Shown: in pieces, positions 8,099-48,487 of the stretch
Numbering within the stretch: position 1 is the first letter of the stretch
How the letters are laid out: each line of letters starts with the position of its first letter
Assembly: GCF_003992725.1 (NCBI RefSeq)
Contig: NZ_RZNF01000012.1
Span: 434,001-498,000, forward strand
Reading direction: 5' to 3'
Length of the DNA: 64,000 nucleotides
Source of the DNA: Rhodomicrobium lacus
Lineage (GTDB): Bacteria; Pseudomonadota; Alphaproteobacteria; Rhizobiales; Rhodomicrobiaceae
Translations under genes and position numbers: made by a program
Notes under the pieces: model-generated
The model's database searches: none
Seen by the model: only the letters and a program-made list of their open reading frames with translations
What the model was told of the DNA's origin: nothing

Positions 8099-9457
8099 TT
8101 AATTCGGAACTTCCGCCGCCGCCGCTGCCGCCGGGGCGGCAGCATTCTCGACCTTCTTGGCCACTTCGATCTTCTTTCCGTGCAGAAGGTCGATAGCTGC
8201 CTTCAACTGCACGTCCTTTTCCTTCTCCTTCGGAACATAGGAGATGCTGCCGGAAGCCTCCTGCGCGCCCTCGTTCTTGAGATGCCCGCGCAGGCTCGCC
8301 TCGCCCTTCGGCGTGAAGGATGCCATCTGCTGCTTGAGATCGTCGGGAAGTTCGGGTTCCACCAGATAGTTCGGCGAAATGCCCGTTGCCTGGATCGAGC
8401 GCCCGGACGGCGTGTAATAACGCGCCGTCGTCAGACGAAGGCCGCCATTTGCGCCGAGCGGGATCATGGTCTGAACAGAGCCCTTGCCGAATGAGCGCGT
8501 GCCGACGACCTCGGCGCGCTTATGATCCTGCAGAGCGCCCGCCACGATCTCCGAAGCGGAGGCGGAACCGCCATTGATCAGAACGACGATGGGCTTTCCA
8601 TCGGTCACATCGCCGGCCTTGGCACTCGCGCGGCTCGACTCGCTTGCATTGCGCCCCTTCGTCAGCACGATCGCGCCCTTGTCGAGGAAAGCGTCGGATA
8701 CCGCGATGGCTTGATCGAGAAGACCGCCGGGATTGTTGCGCAGATCGAGGACATAACCCTTGAGCTTCGGCCCGATGGTCTTTTTGAGATCCTCGATACC
8801 CTGCTTCATATACTCGTAGGTGTGCTCGCTCTGGAACGTCTTGACCTTTATCCAGCCGACATCATCCTCGGCGCTGTATTTCACCGGATTGATGCGAACG
8901 ATGTCACGCACGACGCGCGTCTGGATCGGGGCGTTCGCACCCTTGCGCATGATCGTGAGCATGATCGGCGAATCGACCGGCCCGCGCATCTTCTCCACAG
9001 CCTCGTTGAGCGACAGCCCCTGAATGGATTCGCCGTCGAGATGGGTGATGTAATCGCCCGCCAGCACGCCCGCACGATCGGCCGGCGTGTTGTCGATGGG
9101 CGAAATCACCTTGACCACGCCATCTTCCATCGTGACTTCGATGCCGAGCCCGCCGAACTCTCCACGGGTCTGGACCTGCATGTCCTGGAATTCTTTCGGC
9201 GTGAGGTAGCTCGAATGCGGATCGAGCCCCTGCAACATTCCGTTGATCGCATTCTCGATCAGTTTGGTGTCGTCCGGCTTCTCCACATACTCAGCGCGGA
9301 CGCGCTCGAGCACTTCTCCGAACAGGTCGAGCTGGCGGTAGATTTCCGCGTTCGCAGCGATAGCCTGATCCCGGCGCGTGGATTGCAGTATGAAAAAGCT
9401 GGCTGTGCAAACCAGCGCAACAAGAAGAGCACCGAGCGCGAGGTCGGATTTGCGCAT
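8099..9457 (-). CDS. ctpA: C-terminal processing peptidase, S41 family (copy 1)
   Basis: A periplasmic serine protease of the tail-specific protease family, which trims or degrades envelope proteins, often cell-wall hydrolases. The 452-residue product has an N-terminal membrane anchor (about 8-26), a PDZ domain with EFGGLGIEVTMEDG at about 95-108, and the catalytic core GGSASASEIVAGAL (Ser) and RSFGKGSVQ (Lys), forming the Ser-Lys dyad. It ends in an Ala-rich tail. It starts 6 bases after the EnvC-like gene, with its ribosome site inside that gene, so the two are cotranscribed. A close paralog lies at 36646-38031. Confidence 0.95.
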   Translation of the reverse strand: MRKSDLALGALLVALVCTASFFILQSTRRDQAIAANAEIYRQLDLFGEVLERVRAEYVEKPDDTKLIENAINGMLQGLDPHSSYLTPKEFQDMQVQTRGEFGGLGIEVTMEDGVVKVISPIDNTPADRAGVLAGDYITHLDGESIQGLSLNEAVEKMRGPVDSPIMLTIMRKGANAPIQTRVVRDIVRINPVKYSAEDDVGWIKVKTFQSEHTYEYMKQGIEDLKKTIGPKLKGYVLDLRNNPGGLLDQAIAVSDAFLDKGAIVLTKGRNASESSRASAKAGDVTDGKPIVVLINGGSASASEIVAGALQDHKRAEVVGTRSFGKGSVQTMIPLGANGGLRLTTARYYTPSGRSIQATGISPNYLVEPELPDDLKQQMASFTPKGEASLRGHLKNEGAQEASGSISYVPKEKEKDVQLKAAIDLLHGKKIEVAKKVENAAAPAAAAAAEVPN

Positions 9458-36645: not shown

Positions 36646-38031
36646 ATGCGGAAAAAGGAACTCGCGCTGGGTGCGTTCCTCGTCGCGCTGGTCGTTACCG
36701 GCGGATTTCTCTCCATGCCGCTCGTTCAGCGCCAACCCGCTCAGGCGACGAGCCCCGAAATCTACAAGAAACTCGAACTGTTCGGAGACGTGCTGGAGCG
36801 CGTGCGCGCGGAATATGTCGAGAAGCCCGACGACGCGAAACTCATCGAAAACGCGATCAAGGGCCTCGTGAACGGGCTCGATCCGCATTCGGCCTACCTC
36901 ACGCCCAAGGAATATCAGGACGAGCAGGCCGACACGCGCGGCGAGTTCGGTGGCCTCGGCATCGACGTGATGATGGAAGAAGGCGCCATCAAGGTCATCG
37001 CGCCGCTCGACAACATGCCAGCCGACCGTGCGGGCGTGCTCGCGGGTGATGCAATAACGGCGCTCGACGGCCAATCGGTGAAGGGACTGAGCATGGATGC
37101 GGCCGTGGACCGGATGCGCGGACCGGTCGGCTCGCCGGTGACGCTCACGATCCAGCGAAAGGGCGCCACCGCCCCGATCACCGTGAAAGTCGTCCGCGAT
37201 ATCATCAAGGTCAACCCCGTGGCGTACAGCGTCGAGGGCGACGCGGGCTGGATCAAGGTGAAATCGTTCGAGAATGAGCATACGACCGAGTATGTCCAGA
37301 AGGCGGTCGAAGACATCAAGAAGACGCTCGACGGCAAGGTCTCGGGCTATGTGCTCGACCTGCGCAACAATCCCGGCGGTCTCCTCGATCAGGCCATCGA
37401 CCTGACCGACGCGTTCCTCGACAAGGGCACCATTGTCGTAACGCGCGGTCGCGGCGCCGATGACATCGAGCGCACGACCGCGAAGCAGGGGGACATTTCC
37501 GACGGCAAGCCGGTGATCGTGCTTCTCAACGGCGGTTCGGCGTCGGCTTCCGAAGTCGTGGCGGGCGCGCTTCAGGACCACAATCGCGCGACGCTGCTCG
37601 GCACGCGCTCATTCGGCAAGGGATCGGTGCAAACGCTCATCCCGCTTGCCAACAAGGGCGCGATCCGCGTCACCACCGCACGCTATTTCACGCCGTCGGG
37701 CCGCTCGATTCAGGCGACCGGCATCGAGCCGGACTATGTTGTGGAGCCCGAACTTCCGCCGGAGCTGAAGCTGCAACTCGCCAGCGTGCCCTTCGAGTCC
37801 GAGGCTCAGCTGCGCGGCCATCTCAAGAACGCCGCCGCGACGGAGGAAGGGGGTGGCAGCATCTCCTACGTGCCGAAAGAGAAGGAAAAGGACAACCAGC
37901 TTCAGGCCGCGCTGGCCCTCCTCCACGGTCAGTTGCCGCAAACGGGAAAGAAGGCGACAGAGTCGCTGGATCAGGCGCGGGCCACGACTCCGGCGTCGAG
38001 CCCGCTGTCGAACGGCCCGTCGGGTGGCTGA
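36646..38031 (+). CDS. C-terminal processing peptidase, S41 family (copy 2)
   Basis: A 461-residue paralog of the CtpA at 8099-9457. Shared features include RVRAEYVEKPDD, ENAIxGxxxGLDPHS, EFGGLGI in the PDZ domain, the catalytic Ser in GGSASASEVVAGAL and the Lys in RSFGKGSVQT. The tail (KATESLDQARATTPASSP) differs. An N-terminal membrane segment at about 7-24 keeps it at the periplasmic face. It is a lone gene with a GC-rich hairpin just after the stop. The two copies may process different substrates. Confidence 0.94.
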   Translation: MRKKELALGAFLVALVVTGGFLSMPLVQRQPAQATSPEIYKKLELFGDVLERVRAEYVEKPDDAKLIENAIKGLVNGLDPHSAYLTPKEYQDEQADTRGEFGGLGIDVMMEEGAIKVIAPLDNMPADRAGVLAGDAITALDGQSVKGLSMDAAVDRMRGPVGSPVTLTIQRKGATAPITVKVVRDIIKVNPVAYSVEGDAGWIKVKSFENEHTTEYVQKAVEDIKKTLDGKVSGYVLDLRNNPGGLLDQAIDLTDAFLDKGTIVVTRGRGADDIERTTAKQGDISDGKPVIVLLNGGSASASEVVAGALQDHNRATLLGTRSFGKGSVQTLIPLANKGAIRVTTARYFTPSGRSIQATGIEPDYVVEPELPPELKLQLASVPFESEAQLRGHLKNAAATEEGGGSISYVPKEKEKDNQLQAALALLHGQLPQTGKKATESLDQARATTPASSPLSNGPSGG

Positions 38032-38809
38032 CCGCCGCCGTGCGTAAAGCCCGCGCACGCGCGGGCCATCGGCTGATGCCATACGACAGGGCGAACAAAA
38101 GGCCGTCACGCCCGCGCAGGCGCGGACTATCGATTGTCACGAGCAGCACAGCCACCACTGTGACCGTCACTCCCGCGCACGGGGGGGCCATCGGCGAAAT
38201 GCGGTAGCTCCCCGGCCGAGCGAAGCGGCGAGCCGGCCAACCGGTTTGCGGCCTCGAAACCGTCTTGCAAAGCGCCGGAAGCGCGGGCGCCCTCCAGCGT
38301 CGCGGCGCAAACCCGGAAACGGCACAACGCGTACGATCGATCGAACTTCTTCGCGTGCGATCCATCCGATTCGACGCAGGTCTGATCCAAATCCCATCGC
38401 CCATCAGGAACGCGCTTTTCGACCTCTTGGCCTGCGAGCGCGGAATTTTCGGCAGGTACAACGGATCGGCCTGCGTTAAGTCGGCATCGATTTGACGGCA
38501 GAGAAGCTGATCGACACCCGAAACTTCGGCGTCCTGCTGCTTCCGGTTGGGCACGAAGCTGTGTTCGGGGGATTGGAAATCGCGGGCGAAAATCGCCGAA
38601 ACAAGCGGCGCGTCGAGCGCGGATCGCGGACCTCCGGTCAGCGTCGCGGATGCCTGCCCCGAGCGCCCGATTCAGGCTGACCGCTGATTACGCCAGAGGC
38701 ACCGCCTTTGATGAGTATCAAAGGCCCCCGCTCGATCCTTTGATTATCGCGTCTTGACGGAATACCCCGTCAAACTTTTGCGGCGCACTCTCCGTGGCCC
38801 GGCTCGGCT
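38032..38809. other. Long non-coding region with REP-like triplet and palindromes
   Basis: No gene could be supported in these 778 bases; every open frame lacks family features. It contains a GC-rich hairpin and three REP-like units (38044-38195). Two perfect palindromes lie near the 3' end of ccmH: GCCTTTGAT/ATCAAAGGC at 38704-38725 and TTGACGG/CCGTCAA at 38754-38773. Confidence 0.55.
38044..38195. repeat. Three REP-like units spaced about 61 bp
   Basis: Related GC-rich units begin near 38044, 38105 and 38166. Each has the core CCCGCGCA followed by a G-rich arm and then CCATCGGC or CTATCGAT. The first forms a stem GCCCGCGC/GCGCGGGC at 38049-38066. The regular spacing and position after a gene end fit a repetitive extragenic palindrome cluster. 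Confidence 0.65.
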
Positions 38810-39280
38810 TCAGGAACGCTTTTCACCGAGAAGGGCCTGCAATTCGGCCTGTTCTTCGGGTGTGAGCGGCTTCGCACCCGCCGTTTCGAGGGGTTTGCGG
38901 CGGACGAGACGCGCGGCAAGCAACAAGCCTCCCCCGATGAGCAGCACAGGCGCTGCCCATAACAACAGGGTGTTGAATGTGAAAGGCGGCTTCAGAAGCA
39001 CGAAGTTGCCGTACCGCGCCACCACATAGTCGAGCACTTCCGTGTTCGTTCGCCCTTTTTCGAGCTGCTGGCGGACGATGATGCGCAGATCCTTGGCGAG
39101 CGGCGCGTCGGAATCGTCGATGGACTGGTTCTGGCAGACGAGGCAGCGAAGCCCGGCAGAAATGTCGCGCGCGCGCTGTTCGAGGGCCGGGTCTTTCAGT
39201 TGCTCCTGCGGATCGACGGCGAGCGCGGGCGTGACCGCGGCGGCGAACGTCAGGGCGAGCAGTGCAAGGAAGGAACGCAT
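38810..39280 (-). CDS. ccmH: Cytochrome c maturation protein CcmH
   Basis: Membrane-anchored thiol-disulfide protein that reduces apocytochrome CxxCH cysteines before heme attachment. The 156-residue protein has a signal peptide, the redox motif RCLVCQNQSIDDSDA near residue 47, a transmembrane segment LLLWAAPVLLIGGGLLLAA near 106-124, and a Glu-rich cytoplasmic tail. It starts 3 bases after ccmF and is the last gene of ccmIEFH. Confidence 0.96.
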   Translation of the reverse strand: MRSFLALLALTFAAAVTPALAVDPQEQLKDPALEQRARDISAGLRCLVCQNQSIDDSDAPLAKDLRIIVRQQLEKGRTNTEVLDYVVARYGNFVLLKPPFTFNTLLLWAAPVLLIGGGLLLAARLVRRKPLETAGAKPLTPEEQAELQALLGEKRS

Positions 39281-39283
39281 GTC

Positions 39284-41284
39284 TTACTCCGCTGGCAGGG
39301 CCGGGCCGATCTTGGGCGATTGCGAAAGCGGCGGCTTCCCCGCTCGCTGGCCAACGCCGATGCGCAGGCGCCGATCGAGCAGAGACAGGAACCCGCCGAT
39401 GAACATGAGAACCGCGCCGCCCCAGATCCACCGCACGAACGGGTGATAATAGGCACGGATCGAATAGGCACCGCCCGGCGCCTCATTCCCGAGCACCACG
39501 TAGACATCCGCGAACGGACGCACCGCGATGCCCGCCGCCGTGGTGGATTGCGGAGGCGCATCGTATTTTTTCTTCGCCGAGGTGATGGTGCCTATCACGC
39601 GATCGCCGCTCTTCAGCTCGAAGTCGCCAGCCTGCGCCGTGTAGTTCGGCCCCGGCTCGTCATAGACCTTCTTGAAGGTGATGCTGTAGCTGCCGACATC
39701 GATGCTGTCGCCGGGCTTCATGACCGCGAGATGCTCGGCATTCCATGCGGTCGTGCCCGCGATGCCGATGACGCTGACAGCGAGGCCGACATGTCCGAGC
39801 GTCGCGCCCCATTGGCTGCGCCGCATGTTGGCGATGCGCCGCGCCGTCTCGCCGAAGGAAACCTGGGCAAAACGCGCGCGCCAGAGCACTTCCCACACCG
39901 CGCCCGCGAATACCCATGCGCCCAGCGTCAGCGCGAGGCCGGTCTTGAAGCCGGCTCCCGCCATGACGGACGCGATCCCGACGATAACAGCGGCGACCGC
40001 AGCCGGGATGAGCCGGCGCGCCGCTTCATCGAGATCGCCACGCTTCCACGCGGTGAAGATGCCGAACGGAAGGAGAAGGAGCAGCGGCAGGAAGATCCAG
40101 ACGACCGTCGAATTGAAGAACGGAGCGCCGACCGAAATCTTGTCGCCGGTGGCGGCTTCCAGCGCGAGCGGATAGAGGGTGCCGACAAAGACGACGCCGC
40201 AGGACACCGTAAGGAACAGATTGTTCAGCACGAGGCTCGATTCGCGCGACACCACCGAAAAGGCCGTGCTGGCGGCAAGCGAATTCGAGCGCCAGGAGAA
40301 AAGGAGCAGGCCGCCCGCCGTGAACAGACTCACGATGACGAGAATGAAGACGCCGCGCGACGGGTCCGATGCGAAGGAGTGCACCGAAGTCAGCACGCCC
40401 GAACGCACGAGGAAGGTGCCGAGCAGGCTGAAGCTGAAGGTAAGGATCGCAAGCAGGATCGTCCACGCCTTCAGACTGTCGCGCTTCTCCATCACGATGG
40501 CGGAATGCAACAGCGCCGTGCCGGTCAGCCACGGCATGAGCGAAGCATTCTCCACCGGATCCCAGAACCACCAGCCGCCCCAGCCGAGCGTGTAATAGGC
40601 CCACCAGGAACCGATGGCGATGCCGATGGTGAGGAAAATCCATGCAGCGAGCGTCCACGGCCGCACCCAGCGCGCCCATGCGCTGTCGACGCGCCCGAGA
40701 AGCAGCGCCGCAATGGCGAAGGAAAAGGCCATCGAGAAGCCGACATAACCCGCATAGAGCAGCGGCGGATGGATCGCGAGCGCCGGATCCTGCAGGATCG
40801 GGTTAAGCCCCTGCCCTTCGAACAGCGCATTCGGGATGCGGACGAACGGGTTCGATGTCACGACGATGAACAGCGTGAATGTGAAGAGGATCAGCCCCTG
40901 AATGGAGAGCACCGCCGACCGCAGATCGAGCGGCAGGTTCTGGCCGAACAGCCAAACCGCCGCGCCGAACAGTGCGAGGATCAGCACCCACAGGAGCATC
41001 GAGCCTTCGTGGTTCCCCCACACGCCGGAAATCTTGTAGAGAAGCGGCTTTGCCGAATGGGAGTTTTCCCAGACGTTCGCCACCGAGAAATCGGAATTGA
41101 TATGCGCCCAGAGCAGCGCCGCGAAGGAGCCCGCGATCAGCAGGAAAGCGATCGGAGCGGCGGCGTCGGCCATGGCCATGAGGCGCGTATCGCGCATGCG
41201 CAAACCGGCGAGCGGCGCGGCAAACTGCACAACGGCGACGAAGAGAGCGAGGATGAGGGCGAAGTGGCCCAGTTCAACGATCAC
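39284..41284 (-). CDS. ccmF: Cytochrome c heme lyase subunit CcmF
   Basis: Large inner-membrane subunit that, with CcmH and CcmI, joins heme from CcmE to apocytochrome c. The product has about 666 residues and many membrane helices. The heme-handling WWD motif is WGGWWFWDPVENASLMPW. I prefer the GTG at 41284, which gives the family N-terminus (V/M)IVELGHFALILALF; upstream codons to 41401 encode a charged extension not seen in the family. It lies 214 bases after ccmE, the only sizeable gap in ccmIEFH. Confidence 0.95.
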   Translation of the reverse strand: MIVELGHFALILALFVAVVQFAAPLAGLRMRDTRLMAMADAAAPIAFLLIAGSFAALLWAHINSDFSVANVWENSHSAKPLLYKISGVWGNHEGSMLLWVLILALFGAAVWLFGQNLPLDLRSAVLSIQGLILFTFTLFIVVTSNPFVRIPNALFEGQGLNPILQDPALAIHPPLLYAGYVGFSMAFSFAIAALLLGRVDSAWARWVRPWTLAAWIFLTIGIAIGSWWAYYTLGWGGWWFWDPVENASLMPWLTGTALLHSAIVMEKRDSLKAWTILLAILTFSFSLLGTFLVRSGVLTSVHSFASDPSRGVFILVIVSLFTAGGLLLFSWRSNSLAASTAFSVVSRESSLVLNNLFLTVSCGVVFVGTLYPLALEAATGDKISVGAPFFNSTVVWIFLPLLLLLPFGIFTAWKRGDLDEAARRLIPAAVAAVIVGIASVMAGAGFKTGLALTLGAWVFAGAVWEVLWRARFAQVSFGETARRIANMRRSQWGATLGHVGLAVSVIGIAGTTAWNAEHLAVMKPGDSIDVGSYSITFKKVYDEPGPNYTAQAGDFELKSGDRVIGTITSAKKKYDAPPQSTTAAGIAVRPFADVYVVLGNEAPGGAYSIRAYYHPFVRWIWGGAVLMFIGGFLSLLDRRLRIGVGQRAGKPPLSQSPKIGPALPAE

Positions 41285-41498
41285 GGTCTTCTTTCTCCCA
41301 TGCGCCTCTGGCGTTTTCGGTCGCCGTTTCGCGTGATTGTCTGTCGTTGCCGAGGTCCGCACGCCTTTGCCAGGATCCGGTTGCGTTCCTCGGTTCGCCA
41401 AGGTTCATCGAAAGGTTTCAGCCTTCCGATTTGAAAGCTTCTCGTTCGCGAGCCGAAATCGCTTCGCTGAAAATGCTCCCGGTTCCAAGCGCGCCCGG

Positions 41499-41963
41499 TC
41501 AGGTGCCGGGCGTCGGCGCGGGTTGCTTCCCGCTCTTCTCCTGCCAATGGCCGTTCTTTTTCAGCGCGTCCGCAACCTCCGGCGGCATGTAATTCTCGTC
41601 GTGCTTTGCGAGCACGGTATCGGCAACGAACACGCCGTTCACAAGGCGTCCCTCCGCGACCACGCCCTGCCCCTCGCGGAACAGGTCGGGCAGGATGCCC
41701 TTGTAGCTCACGGGCAAGGAAGCCGCGTTGTCGGTGACAGAGAAAACATTCACCGCGTCGGCTTCGCGCTTGTAGCTGCCCGCTGCAACGAGGCCGCCGA
41801 GGCGGAAACGCGTGGCAGGATCGGGCGCGGCCTTGGCCACCTCGGCCGGGCTCATGAAGAAAGTGACCTGCGTCTGGAGCGCACTCAGCACGAGCGTCGA
41901 GGCCACGCCGATCAGCGCAAGGCCCATCACGATCAAAACCGCGCGGCGTTTCTTTCTCGTCAT
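41499..41963 (-). CDS. ccmE: Heme chaperone CcmE
   Basis: Periplasmic heme chaperone that binds heme covalently through a His and passes it to CcmF. The 154-residue protein has an N-terminal membrane anchor ([19 protein letters not shown]), an OB-fold and the heme-binding motif with His and Tyr in [12 protein letters not shown] near residue 125. Its start overlaps the ccmI stop as ATGA. Confidence 0.97.
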
Positions 41964-43075
41964 GTCCTCGGTTGCCCTCCCTGCCCGTTGGCGCCAAGTC
42001 CGGCTTCTTTTACGGCGGCTTCGATCTCTCGAAGAGCCTTCGCGTCGGATGCGAAAGCTTGCCGCGCGGTTTCGGCGGCGTCTTTAGCCTTGTCGTTTTC
42101 CTTCAGCACCGCGTAGGAGCGGATCAGCCTTATCCAGCCTTCGAGGTCGGACTTGTTCTCCTTGAGGCGCGCGGCAAGCCCGTCCACCATGCCGCGGATC
42201 ATCTTGCCCTGCTCTTCGGGGCTTGCCTGGGCGACATCGTTCGATTGATCCGGCGCAGAAAGAGCTGCAAGGCGCTGGTTCACAAGCTGCCTGAGCCCGG
42301 GATGCAGTTCGCCGGCGAGCATCGCCTTGTAAATTTTCTCGGCCTCGCCTCTGCGGCCATCCTGCTCGGCGATAAGACCGGTCCAGAGGCGGACGCGAAG
42401 CGACGTCGGGCTGAGCTTGGCCGCCGATTCGAAGGCGAGCCGCGCGCGATCGTTGATGCTGCCATCGTTGGCGAAGGTCAGCGCCTCTCCAAGGCCGAGA
42501 AGCTTCTCCTCGTCCATGCCGCCATATTCAATGGCGCGAGAATAGGCATCGGCTGCCTTGTCGAACAAACCGTTACGGAAATAGACCGGCGCGATGCGTA
42601 TCCATCCGGCTACGTCTTTCGGGTTCGCTCGCAGTTCGCGCTCAGCCTTCGCGATATAGACGTCGACGGTCTGCCTCTCGGGCGGCACGTTCAGACGGGC
42701 TTCGAGCGGCATATCCCGCAAGCCGGGCTGTCCATAGACGACATAGGTCGCGATGGTGCCGAGCGCGAGCAGCGCAGCCGTGGCGGCAGCGGCCACCGCG
42801 CTGTTTCCGCCGAACCCCACGCCCACGCCTTGCGATGAAGCGTTGCCCTGCCGGCTGGCGCGCAGCAGGCGCCGCGAAAGTTCAAGCCTCGTCTGGCGGG
42901 TTTCCTCCTGCCCGACGGTGCCGCGTTCGGCCTCGCGGTCGAGTTCGGCGAGCTGCGCCTTGTAGACTTCCACCTCTGACGCGCCCGCATGGGCATCGGC
43001 GGGCGCGCGCCTGAGCGAACGCGTCACCGCCAGAATTACGCCGGCCGTCAATAAAGCAAAGATTATCCAGATCAT
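41960..43075 (-). CDS. ccmI: Cytochrome c maturation protein CcmI (TPR chaperone)
   Basis: Holds the C-terminal helix of apocytochromes and delivers them to CcmF/CcmH. The N-terminal half has two membrane segments ([18 protein letters not shown] and [23 protein letters not shown]) flanking a cytoplasmic loop with a basic leucine-rich helix. The periplasmic part has TPR repeats ([10 protein letters not shown], then GEALTFAND). I prefer ATG 43075 over 43111, because it puts the first membrane helix at the N-terminus. First gene of ccmIEFH, downstream of pioC on the same strand. Confidence 0.93.
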
Positions 43076-43356
43076 CGCGCGCGACAGTACTCCGACAGCT
43101 TCGGGTGTCAAGGCTGTGAAAGACCAGTTAATGGGGACGAGATCAAGCTGTTCAAGCCGCCTCGCTCATTGGCGGAAGCCGGTCGCGGCGATTTTCGCCG
43201 GGAGGCCCCGAAGGCCGTCAAGCGGCGAAAGACGAACCAAGCCAAGCAGGCGCGGCCTCCGCGCCCCGACGCCGAAAGGACGCGCCGCCGGAGCGACGCG
43301 CCTTCGGGCGCGGCAATCGGTCCCGTCGAGCCATCGAAAAACCGCGCCGCCCCGCG

Positions 43357-43638
43357 CTAGCCCTTCTTGGAAAAGATCTTGCAGTAGCCGTTCGGGCTGA
43401 TGGTGCCTTCGACGACGCGGCAGCTTGACGGAGCCTGGAAGTGCTGACACAGGGCGCAGTGCTTGCCGCTATTCGGAGAACCCTGATAACCGACGGCCGA
43501 CTGCGCCGCCTTCTTCGCCACCTGCGCCTCCGCGCTGCCGGCCACGAGGCCGGCTGCACCGAGCGCGCCGAGCGCATAGGCACCGAATTTCAAAACCTCG
43601 CGGCGCGTGTTTCCGGCCTTGTTGCTGGTATCGTCCAT
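43357..43638 (-). CDS. pioC: High-potential iron-sulfur protein, PioC-like
   Basis: A 93-residue periplasmic electron carrier with one high-potential 4Fe-4S cluster, expected to pass electrons from PioA to the photosynthetic reaction centre. The N-terminus has a twin-arginine signal (NTRREVLKFGAYALGALG), needed because the cluster is inserted before export. Four Cys lie in the pattern C-x2-C-x8-C-x12-C (HCALC, SSC, GYC), as in the HiPIP family. A ribosome site AGAGGAA precedes the ATG. It follows pioB after about 510 bases and has its own promoter-like sequence. Confidence 0.9.
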   Translation of the reverse strand: MDDTSNKAGNTRREVLKFGAYALGALGAAGLVAGSAEAQVAKKAAQSAVGYQGSPNSGKHCALCQHFQAPSSCRVVEGTISPNGYCKIFSKKG

Positions 43639-44149: not shown

Positions 44150-46702
44150 TTACCATTTGAAGTTCAGCGACGTGGCGACGACGTGAACATCGTAGTTCGG
44201 ATTGTAAGCGGCCATGGAGATATCGCGGCCCTGAGCCGAAGGATCAACCAGGTACATGTATGGCGTCACAAGATCGTTCTGCCAGTTGTCCACACGGGAG
44301 TGATCCCAACTGTACTTCAGTTTCCAGTATACATCACCATCGAAGCCCGTTTTCGTAACAAGTTCCGAGTCGAACTTGTACTTCAATACCGCATCGACAC
44401 GCTGAAGGTTCGTGTTAACGGTTGGATAGGGCATACAACCGGCGAGGTAAGTAGCCGAGCCCGGTGTCGCGCAAGCGCTGTTGCCCGAGAGGTCGGTGGC
44501 CGTCCAGTTCTCCTTGCCAAAGGCGATCGAATAGCTCGCGCTGAAGTCAAACTGATCATTCAGGGCGATGTTCGCGCCGACGATGAAGGTGTCCACGTCC
44601 TCCTTCATGTTGCTCGCCCAGCGGGTATTCACAGCCGCGATGGCGCCTGTTGCGGTATTCTGCAGCGTGTTGCTGCCGACGAGATCCCTGTCGGAATTTT
44701 CATGAACATAGGCAAACACGATGCTTGTGCCCGGCTTGAACGAGTAAGCCGCCTCAATACCTCCGTTCCAGCTGTAATCCTTCAACAATCCCATCTCGTA
44801 AGTCGTCGAGGTGGTTGTCGTGTTGTTGAAAGTTACGCTGCGGGAATACGCCTTGTTCGGGTCCGTCAGATAGTCGTCATTCCGAATTCCGAAGCTTGGC
44901 GTCAACGAGAGGTTCGACAGGTACGGGATATTGTCGAACGAGAACAGCACATTGCCCTTGTTTCTGTCGCGGTTTGCGAGGTCGAACTTGCGCTCGCCCC
45001 AGTTGTTCGATGTGCCACCCGTGCCGTCCGGGTAGATCGTCGCATACCAAGCTTGTGGATCGTAACGATCGTAGCGCCTTTCCGAGTACTGGTAGCTTGC
45101 CCGCAACTGGCCGATGTCGTTCCAGCGTGCATCTGCGTAGACCTTGCCGATCAACTCGTCGGTGCGAAGCGCCTCGCGGTTGTCGCGCTCGATCCTCTCC
45201 CAGCCCGCTGAGCCGCCGACCGAGGCGTTCTTGAGAACATGGTAAGTCAAATCCCCGGACGCGTTCTGCTTGGTATAGGAATAGCCGAAGTTTCTTCTAT
45301 CCACACTCAGGGCCGTATCTTCCGAAACCCATCTCCAGAAGGTCTCGGGAGTCTGGTTATCGTTGTCGTAGTATCGATAACGAAGCGTCGACTTGAGATC
45401 GTCGGTTATGCGCGTGTTGAGTACATTATTGACGAGCAGCGCATTGACCTCGCCATTGAGGCTGGTGGCGGTGTTGTACGTACGCCCGGTCGTGGCGTCA
45501 TAGTAGGGCGAGTTGTACGTGTTTAACGTCGTGCTCCCGGTCGCGATCGTCATCGGCATGAACGGCTCGTCCTGCCGCATCGTCGTGTACTGGACGGTGT
45601 TCATGAAACGCGAACTGAACGGCAGATCGATACCGGAGGTGATATTGCCGGAATACGCCTGATTGCTTGGCATGAGGCTGACGCGTGCGCATGGCGAAGA
45701 GCTCAACGCCGTATTGTACGTACTGGCGCAGCCTGCCGAGGTTCCACCGTCCGGCAGCGTATAGAACGGATTCTGCACAGTGTAATAGCTGTATTCGTTA
45801 TCGTACGTGGAAATACCACCCGTGATCTTGACGTTGTAATGGCCGTAAGCCCAGTCGCCGGAGCGCTCGCCGGACACCTTCGCATTCTGGGTGGTGTCAT
45901 CGACCGGCCGCGGCACCTGCACCATCTGTGTACCGGCGACGCCGCCCCAGTTTACGCCGGCGACCTGCGTGCCCTCCCGCTTTTCGTGGAAATATTGGAC
46001 ACGCGCTTCCCAGTTGGGGGTTGGCGTCCAGCGCTGATCCGCTTCAAAGCGATCACGGTCGATGCCGATCTTGATCGTCTTCAGATTTGCCGCCAACGTG
46101 CTGTTGATCAGATTTTTGGCCGCGATGCCGTTGGCACTGAGCGGATTGATAAAATCGGTCTGCGCGTACTTCTTCGCCAAGTCGCCGAGATTGACATTCG
46201 TCGTCAGATAGTTGGTGCCGACGCCGTTCCAGATGCTCTGCGCGGTCGTGCTGTAGACATGCGGGATCTGGTCCCACGTCACGGTGCCGGTCAGCACACC
46301 GGTGATTCCCCAGTCGAAGATGTAGCGCTGGTTGTTGTTGCCCACATCGGTCGCGCGAAGCTCGGCCACGTACGCGCCGTCCTTGGTCTGGGCGCCGGCG
46401 GTCAGCCTCTCGAGATAGGCGCCTTCAGGAACGTTGCCATATTCTTCGTACTTCGCGATGCTTCCCTTGTCCGGGCGCTGAACGCTCGGTGTGACCCAGG
46501 CCCTGCCGATGTCGCGCGGCTTCTCAATGAAGTACCGCCCGCCGAACTCGATGTCGCCCCAGGTGTCGAGTTCGATCTTCTCTTCGGCTGCGGGCGCGGG
46601 AGCCGGGGCCGGCTTGTCGCCCGCTCGCGCCGACTGCACGGCGAACGATGCCACCGCAATCGAAAGAATACTCGTCAGCACTACCCTGCCATGAAACTCC
46701 AT
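44150..46702 (-). CDS. pioB: Decaheme-associated outer-membrane barrel, PioB/MtrB family
   Basis: An 850-residue outer-membrane beta-barrel that should sheathe the decaheme cytochrome and let electrons cross the outer membrane. A signal peptide ends near SARAGDK, followed by an Ala/Pro linker and IELDTWGDIEFGGRYF, the start of the barrel. Alternating aromatic beta-strands follow, with C-terminal VATSLNFKW. The N-terminal CxxC found in Shewanella MtrB is absent, as in PioB. I chose ATG 46702, which has GGAGGGGATC just before it. It lies 107 bases after pioA. Confidence 0.9.
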   Translation of the reverse strand: MEFHGRVVLTSILSIAVASFAVQSARAGDKPAPAPAPAAEEKIELDTWGDIEFGGRYFIEKPRDIGRAWVTPSVQRPDKGSIAKYEEYGNVPEGAYLERLTAGAQTKDGAYVAELRATDVGNNNQRYIFDWGITGVLTGTVTWDQIPHVYSTTAQSIWNGVGTNYLTTNVNLGDLAKKYAQTDFINPLSANGIAAKNLINSTLAANLKTIKIGIDRDRFEADQRWTPTPNWEARVQYFHEKREGTQVAGVNWGGVAGTQMVQVPRPVDDTTQNAKVSGERSGDWAYGHYNVKITGGISTYDNEYSYYTVQNPFYTLPDGGTSAGCASTYNTALSSSPCARVSLMPSNQAYSGNITSGIDLPFSSRFMNTVQYTTMRQDEPFMPMTIATGSTTLNTYNSPYYDATTGRTYNTATSLNGEVNALLVNNVLNTRITDDLKSTLRYRYYDNDNQTPETFWRWVSEDTALSVDRRNFGYSYTKQNASGDLTYHVLKNASVGGSAGWERIERDNREALRTDELIGKVYADARWNDIGQLRASYQYSERRYDRYDPQAWYATIYPDGTGGTSNNWGERKFDLANRDRNKGNVLFSFDNIPYLSNLSLTPSFGIRNDDYLTDPNKAYSRSVTFNNTTTTSTTYEMGLLKDYSWNGGIEAAYSFKPGTSIVFAYVHENSDRDLVGSNTLQNTATGAIAAVNTRWASNMKEDVDTFIVGANIALNDQFDFSASYSIAFGKENWTATDLSGNSACATPGSATYLAGCMPYPTVNTNLQRVDAVLKYKFDSELVTKTGFDGDVYWKLKYSWDHSRVDNWQNDLVTPYMYLVDPSAQGRDISMAAYNPNYDVHVVATSLNFKW

Positions 46703-46809
46703 GATCCCCTCCCGCGCCGCCCAAGGCGCCTCTCCTGATTCGTCTCCGCCCATTCCTGACCGGTCCGCCCGAGACCGGTCAGGTTATTGTTTTTGCTTGG
46801 TTTATATTG

Positions 46810-48252
46810 CTACCGGTGCCATCTAGATCCCGACGGCGCGTTCGAGCCGTGGATATTGCTGTGGCAGTTCTGGCAGGCCAGACTGGTTGTCCGGCGCATG
46901 TTGTTCGCCACCGAGGGATCGGCCAGACCTGCAGTCGCATGCGGGACTGTATGGCACCGCTGGCAGAGCCGCTGGCGAGCCACCACGAGCAGGCTGTTGT
47001 GCATGGAGCCGTGCGGCTCGTGGCAGTTCATGCAGTTCTCGCGAACCGGCGCATGCTCGAAGAGGAACGGACCGCGCTTGTCGGCGTGGCACTGGTAGCA
47101 GGTGTCGTTGATGGTCGCTTCCTTCAGCATCGCCGTTTCCGAAGCGCTGCCGTGCGGGTTATGACAGCTGGAGCAGCTGATCTTGCCCTCGATCATCGGC
47201 ATGTGGGCACTGCGGAGGCTCTGCGCGCGGCGATCCTTGTGGCACTGGAAGCAGGTGTCCTGCACCGTGCCCTTCGCGAGCTGGAAGCGCGGGGAAGTCT
47301 TGCGCATGACGGTGTGGCAGTCCGTGCAGGCGACGTCGCGCGTCTCGTGTGTGCTGCCCTTCCAGTAGGTGCGGTCGTTCTTCTCGTGGCACTGCAGGCA
47401 GACAGCGTTCGTGTCGGCGACGGACGTGCGCGGATCGGACTTGCGGAACGAGCGGATGCCCCCGCCGAGACGACCGCCACCCCCGTTCACGTGCGCCGAT
47501 GCGGGGCCGTGGCAGGTTTCGCAGTCCATCTTGCCTTTGGGCGTGTCCTTGCCGGCCTCGAAATTGCGGCCCATGACCGTGAACTTGAATTCGTCGAACA
47601 GATAGGCGTGGCAGACCTTGCACGGCTCCGAGCCGACGTAATACCGGCCTTCCGGATCGTCGGGCGCGGCACGGACGACCTTCGCCTTCGCATCGGCGGC
47701 GGGAGCGGCCTCGGCGGCCTGCGCCTTGCCTGCGGGAGCCTTGGCCGCGTCCGGCTTGGCTGTGTCGGGTTTGGCGGACGGGACGGATTCCGCGACCATG
47801 ATCAGATGTTCGGTTTCGGCGTCGACCCCGCCGCCGGAGCTGCCTGAGCTACCGACCAGACCGGCTTCCGGCGTGAAGAGCGCATGATTGAGGAGCGCTT
47901 TCGCGGGGCTCGCCTTCGACAGGGAAAGACCCGAGTGCGGATTTGTGCCAATGCCCCCGTGCGCGCTTTTTTTTGCTCCGTGCGCGCTCTTGGCGCCATG
48001 CGCATCGGCCGGGGCCATGCCCGAAACGTCGGGATGCCCTGCCGGAAGCGGCTTGTCGCCCGCCTGAGACTGCATCGCATAAACGAAAACGTCGGAACCG
48101 ATCGCGGCGCTTTGTCCTGCCACCGCCTGCCCGCCCGCGATAGCGACCAGAAGGCCAAGTGCCGGCAGGGTCCAAATCGCTCGCTTTCGAAGGCGCAAAC
48201 GCCCCCGCTCCGGCTCTCCACACGAAGAGCCGGTCAAATTAGAGAAAAACAT
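46810..48252 (-). CDS. pioA: Decaheme c-type cytochrome, PioA/MtrA family
   Basis: Periplasmic/outer-membrane cytochrome that takes electrons from Fe(II) or a solid donor and passes them inward. The 480-residue protein has ten CxxCH heme motifs between residues 211 and 464: CKVCH, CETCH, CLQCH, CTDCH, CFQCH, CSSCH, CYQCH, CMNCH, CQRCH and CQNCH. Before them is a signal peptide (LPALGLLVAIAGGQAVA) and an extension of about 165 residues, His/Lys-rich at 83-100 and Ala/Pro/Lys-rich at 157-200. Such an extension separates PioA from shorter MtrA proteins. AGGAGGGGGCGC precedes the ATG. Confidence 0.93.
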   Translation of the reverse strand: MFFSNLTGSSCGEPERGRLRLRKRAIWTLPALGLLVAIAGGQAVAGQSAAIGSDVFVYAMQSQAGDKPLPAGHPDVSGMAPADAHGAKSAHGAKKSAHGGIGTNPHSGLSLSKASPAKALLNHALFTPEAGLVGSSGSSGGGVDAETEHLIMVAESVPSAKPDTAKPDAAKAPAGKAQAAEAAPAADAKAKVVRAAPDDPEGRYYVGSEPCKVCHAYLFDEFKFTVMGRNFEAGKDTPKGKMDCETCHGPASAHVNGGGGRLGGGIRSFRKSDPRTSVADTNAVCLQCHEKNDRTYWKGSTHETRDVACTDCHTVMRKTSPRFQLAKGTVQDTCFQCHKDRRAQSLRSAHMPMIEGKISCSSCHNPHGSASETAMLKEATINDTCYQCHADKRGPFLFEHAPVRENCMNCHEPHGSMHNSLLVVARQRLCQRCHTVPHATAGLADPSVANNMRRTTSLACQNCHSNIHGSNAPSGSRWHR

Positions 48253-48401
48253 GCGCCCCCTCCTTGCCCGTTTTCTGCGCGCTCGGACCCGACTGAGAAG
48301 CGGTCCTTTATCGCCCGTATATTGCGCGCTATGGTCAGATTATTACGAAGCAGCAATCATATGCGCAAGATCGCATTCCATCGTTCTTTGGATGTGGAAC
48401 G

Positions 48402-48441
48402 ATTATAAGGAAATCGGATAAGCCCTGTTGCAGTAACGCAA
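48402..48441 (-). promoter_or_regulatory. pioA promoter with perfect FixK2-type box
   Basis: TTGC-AGTAAC-GCAA at 48428-48441 matches the FixK2 consensus TTG(A/C)-N6-(T/G)CAA exactly and lies inside the longer palindrome TGTTGC-N6-GCAACA (48426-48443). On the minus strand TATAAT lies at 48407-48402, predicting a start near 48395, which puts the box centre at about -40, the class II activator position. The -35 region itself is poor, as expected for an activated promoter. Confidence 0.7.
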
Positions 48442-48487
48442 CAAAATTACAAAGGATGACAAGGAACGAGAGCAATAAGCTCAACCT

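Follow-up and report, generated by a model that had tools for sequence, protein, structure and literature searches.

A conserved palindrome upstream of pioABC in Rhodomicrobium as a probable CRP/FNR-family operator

Conservation across four genomes, the decisive evidence, confirmed at the sequence level that a palindrome upstream of pioABC in Rhodomicrobium is real and functionally constrained. On balance, we judge that a CRP/FNR-family activator uses the palindrome as its operator in a class II pioABC promoter, and that this activator is probably FnrL, bound under anoxia. The site is of the FNR/FixK-family operator type already known, and its Rhodomicrobium pio instance appears to be new in searchable papers, in which no description of such a pio operator in this genus was found; the papers found report for Rhodomicrobium neither a transcription start nor binding or expression data. 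For FixK control of photoferrotrophy, the direct evidence found comes from one strain. The following genes were recognized in the window, the whole stretch of 64,000 nt that was analysed.

46810..48252, minus strand: pioA, decaheme c-type cytochrome (TIGR03508, 249 bits; orthologues found)
44150..46753, minus strand: pioB, outer-membrane porin (TIGR03509 MtrB/PioB, 339 bits)
43357..43638, minus strand: pioC, HiPIP / iron oxidase family (NF041615, 65 bits, below the cut-off of 100)
38810..43111, minus strand: ccmI, ccmE, ccmF and ccmH, co-oriented after pioC (order pioABC-ccmIEFH kept in genome G001)

Read-through from pio may reach ccmIEFH (43111-43638 junction), in which case cytochrome c maturation would be co-transcribed; in strain TIE-1, cycH (Rpal_2130) is decreased when fixK is mutated (PMC3050613). 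An exact FNR consensus match at 38708-38721, TTGATGAGTATCAA, resembles a second FixK box and was rejected as such, being the core of a CCTTTGAT-N4-ATCAAAGG inverted repeat 3′ of ccmH. This downstream repeat is probably a terminator, and one that can mislead motif scans. The window also encodes, at 8099-9457 and 36646-38031, a pair of paralogues whose N-termini are nearly identical and which look by eye like carboxy-terminal processing proteases.

Upstream of pioA, the minus strand reads TTTTGTTGCGTTACTGCAACAGGGCTTATCCGATTTCCTTATAATCG, and the plus strand at 48426-48443 reads TGTTGCAGTAACGCAACA. The following elements were assigned.

48426..48443, minus strand: putative 18-bp operator palindrome TGTTGC-N6-GCAACA (17 of 18 columns invariant in four Rhodomicrobium genomes; only two exact copies in the 3.88-Mb genome)
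48428..48441, minus strand: FixK/FNR-type box TTGCGTTACTGCAA, centre 48434.5, fitting TTG(A/C)-N6-(T/G)CAA (PMC6710368)
48402..48407, minus strand: -10 hexamer TATAAT, TATAAC in two relatives (5 of 6 positions invariant)
48395, minus strand: predicted transcription start (+1, ± 1-2 nt), placed from the -10
48253..48395, minus strand: predicted 5′ UTR some 143 nt long, well kept across the genus (117 of 151 columns invariant between the -10 and ATG)

The arms TGTTGC and GCAACA pair perfectly (6/6), while the N6 centre is symmetric only in part. A first-pass annotation of this DNA had described a TTGC-N6-GCAA palindrome within a longer one, fitting the FixK2 box and spaced from TATAAT as class II activation would have it. 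The longer palindrome is indeed present at 48426-48443, and its inner 14-mer matches the box TTG(A/C)-N6-(T/G)CAA published for FixK2 of Bradyrhizobium diazoefficiens (PMC6710368). From the Bradyrhizobium nnrR/nnrS intergenic region, whose one predicted box is listed as TTGCGCTATCGCAA, transcripts were obtained in vitro only with FixK2 (PMC6710368), an activation that counts in favour of this operator type.

Some 150 nt separate the TATAAT hexamer from the pioA ATG (48252) downstream of it, and 27.5 bp lie between the palindrome centre and the first -10 base. With +1 at 48395, the operator centre would fall at about -39.5, a class-II-like position. The classical class II centre is -41.5, so the predicted pio centre is two bp short, and the spacing claim holds with that reservation. 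No sigma-70 promoter with a -35 was found 5′ of pioA, as expected if an activator takes over that contact; this absence and the operator position are together in keeping with a class II promoter that depends on an activator. A terminator or RNA element was rejected as a reading of the palindrome, which has no T-run, no terminator match and no Rfam match; the pioA 5′ UTR likewise gave no Rfam match. Just past the -10, a conserved CGTTC...GAACG inverted repeat (48382-48401) spans the predicted start and adjoins the conserved 5′ UTR.

The window shows no excess of the loose pattern TTG-N8-CAA (7 occurrences against 10 expected). Shuffling the region upstream of pioA yields TTGM-N6-KCAA in 7% of cases and the full 18-mer in 0.005%. 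Of 47 FixK-type sites sampled on contigs C1 and C2, 20 were intergenic, a count based on our own gene calls and without a matched control. Chance as the origin of the palindrome was ruled out by its conservation footprint. The sequence TGTTGCG(A/T)TACTGCAACA occurs in four pio-bearing Rhodomicrobium genomes at a distance from the pioA ATG that is equal within 1 nt. When these genomes were aligned, invariant columns made up 94% of the palindrome against 20% of the upstream flank (19/94), 80% of the 10 nt preceding the palindrome, 33% of the spacer between palindrome and -10 (6/18), 83% of the -10 hexamer and 77% of the stretch from -10 to ATG. Farther upstream the DNA is unalignable between genomes, and the conserved block begins about 10-20 nt before the palindrome, the pattern expected where an operator forms a promoter's edge.

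Boxes of this family are found at other pio promoters. Of 14 Rhizobiales genera, 8 have FixK/FNR boxes no more than 400 nt from pioA-like genes; with one genome taken per genus, they occur in 7 of 14 genera, against a shuffled mean of 0.58 and a maximum of 4 (2000 trials). FixK activates pio in Rhodopseudomonas TIE-1 (PMC3050613). In the genomes that we assigned to Rhodopseudomonas from the locus and the geometry of box and start, TTGATCTCGATCAA occurs upstream of pioA, and its spacing from a G agrees with the published start (PMC3050613); this sequence is in all likelihood the published FixK I box. TTGC/TCAA hybrid boxes are present at pio-like promoters of a further genus (g171). Upstream of pio in genus g126 (L099, L100, L082), GTTGC-N4-GCAAC was seen in two of three genomes and is eroded in L082; the TTGC-N4-GCAA palindrome is two bp too short for FNR spacing.

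Twelve HTH_Crp_2 matches were obtained in the window's genome, and all but four weak ones were read. Among the proteins read, no Cys-less FixK2-type regulator (E--SR helix) was seen in this genome, and none was found in the pio-bearing Rhodomicrobium genomes. The FixLJ-FixK scheme calls for a Cys-less FixK-type protein, and the E--SR proteins found are FnrL types. These two proteins combine CxxC-x7-C clusters with E--SR helices, and both types occur in pio-bearing species.

C7:405112-405906: FnrL1, recognition helix YLGLTLETVSR as in FixK2 (4I2O)
C12:1592164-1592964: FnrL2, FnrL-type with Cys cluster

Sequence comparison leaves three candidate binders, the two FnrL proteins and an NnrR orthologue. 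FnrL is the likelier user of the palindrome because the genus appears to be without a FixK2-type protein, and the helix shared with FixK2 argues that FnrL1 accepts TTGC. The exact FixK site in a second lineage proposed by the first-pass annotation is borne out in the kind of operator, its position, its conservation and the boxes at other pio promoters, including that of Rhodopseudomonas, and lacks support as to the regulator; 'FixK2' should read 'FNR/FixK-family, probably FnrL'.

The activator that would bind TTGC-N6-GCAA at about -40 under anoxia, as a dimer, is most likely a [4Fe-4S]-type FnrL protein, of which there are two; our best guess is FnrL1. Bound FnrL would replace the missing -35 contact and recruit RNA polymerase to the conserved -10, and oxygen, by destroying the Fe-S cluster, would switch pio off. 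Predicted in this scheme are the identity of the bound protein, the start site, the response to oxygen, and sensing directly by the Fe-S cluster rather than via FixLJ-FixK.

FNR-type (TTGA-type) boxes precede ccoN and bchJ in the window's genome, and ompW is preceded by a TTGC/TCAA hybrid box adjoining a TTGA/TCAA box. Against FnrL stand the clearest FnrL-type sites (ccoN, puh region), which read TTGAT-N4-ATCAA, differ from the pio site at four positions and are without its TG/CA flanks; the short -39.5 spacing and the use of a TTGC-type box by NnrR count in the same direction.

The palindrome could instead be the operator of the NnrR orthologue, an H--SR CRP/FNR protein adjoining nnrS (C2:135600 region), with pio answering NO or a related signal instead of, or besides, oxygen; we hold this to be unlikely. 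The orthologue is 67% identical to a Sinorhizobium meliloti pSymA protein and has the same helix, GTTLHTVSR. The neighbours of the pSymA protein are, as recognized by eye, presumably nirK, nnrS and nor. Before nnrS, next to the NnrR orthologue, the box TTGCGCCGC(G/A)ACAA is kept in four pio-bearing Rhodomicrobium species (L001 1427-1440; L170, L171, L172), and the published NnrR motif ctTTGcgnnnncgCAAag (PMC1274295) has TTGC halves like the pio site. However, the NnrR flanks are CT/AG where pio has TG/CA, and the second half of the box at nnrS is TTGT, while pio has TTGC in both halves. We know of no physiological link between NnrR and pio, which also counts against this alternative, as does the published control of pio by FixK (PMC3050613).

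Aerobic repression of pio together with the photosynthesis genes, through a PpsR/CrtJ operator TGT-N12-ACA, was considered as well. That loose pattern is satisfied exactly at the pio site in four species, and one ppsR is present in the genome (TIGR02040, 459 bits). The stricter pattern TGT(A/C)A-N8-T(G/T)ACA has only 10 sites in the genome, at least 6 of them at genes recognized by eye as bchG, crtI/crtE, bchC, two light-harvesting operons and hemA. With its TGTTG halves, the pio site does not conform to it, which makes PpsR very improbable; moreover, other pio promoters mostly carry FNR boxes, with TGT-N12-ACA sporadic there.

Fifteen near-exact copies of the palindrome were found in the genome, and 3 of the 15 precede genes for beta-barrel outer-membrane proteins.

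C12:429083, 932731 and 660677: sites before beta-barrel genes (PF13505), with diverged flanks or spacers

In two other Rhodomicrobium genomes, each of the three has an aligned counterpart, conserved as TGTTGC-N6-(G/T)CAACA (L194/L190/L191, L195/L192/L193, L030/L069/L070), and the copy at C12:660677 has TATAAT at -41.5 spacing. Taken with the site before pioA, they suggest a common regulon. A different regulator could recognize an 18-bp operator TGTTG(C/A)-N6-(G/T)CAACA before an outer-membrane set that includes pio, the likeness to a FixK box being partial. Conserved sites of this form before three beta-barrel genes, and canonical FNR-type sites without TG/CA flanks, speak for such a protein. 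Still, the flanks were selected as part of the search pattern and are alone no proof of a separate regulator, and two of the three beta-barrel sites pair TTGC with TTGA, a mixture tolerated by FixK2-type proteins; we regard a regulator of this kind as decidedly improbable. A broader proposal is tentatively offered, that Rhodomicrobium pioABC may belong to an outer-membrane regulon with this operator under a CRP/FNR paralogue other than FixK, either an Fe-S FnrL or an NO-type NnrR, photoferrotrophy control having been rewired between genera with the promoter plan kept.

The presence of a conserved operator in another lineage suggests that pio promoters in general carry an anoxic switch. That a FixK2-type protein is apparently missing points to another sensor and bears on how control of Fe(II) oxidation evolves. 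Like pio of TIE-1, the Rhodomicrobium promoter has a CRP/FNR-type palindrome at a class II position before pioA, a -10 without a good -35 and a long 5′ UTR (177 nt in TIE-1, about 143 nt predicted here). In Rhodopseudomonas, however, the halves are TTGAT and the centre is at -44.5, whereas Rhodomicrobium has TTGC halves at a predicted centre of about -39.5; TIE-1 has a second box at -137.5 where Rhodomicrobium has one box, and no FixK2-type protein was found in Rhodomicrobium. With Bradyrhizobium FixK2, the pio site shares the half-sites TTGC/GCAA and Rhodomicrobium FnrL1 the entire helix, but FixK2 has no Fe-S cluster and takes its input from FixLJ, while the Rhodomicrobium candidates bear a Cys cluster. 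The site resembles NnrR boxes in its TTGC halves, an NnrR orthologue being present in pio-bearing species, and PpsR/CrtJ operators in the loose pattern; it departs from the former in its flanks and from the second half at nnrS, and from the latter in its TGTTG half, set against TGT(A/C)A in the ten strict sites of the genome.
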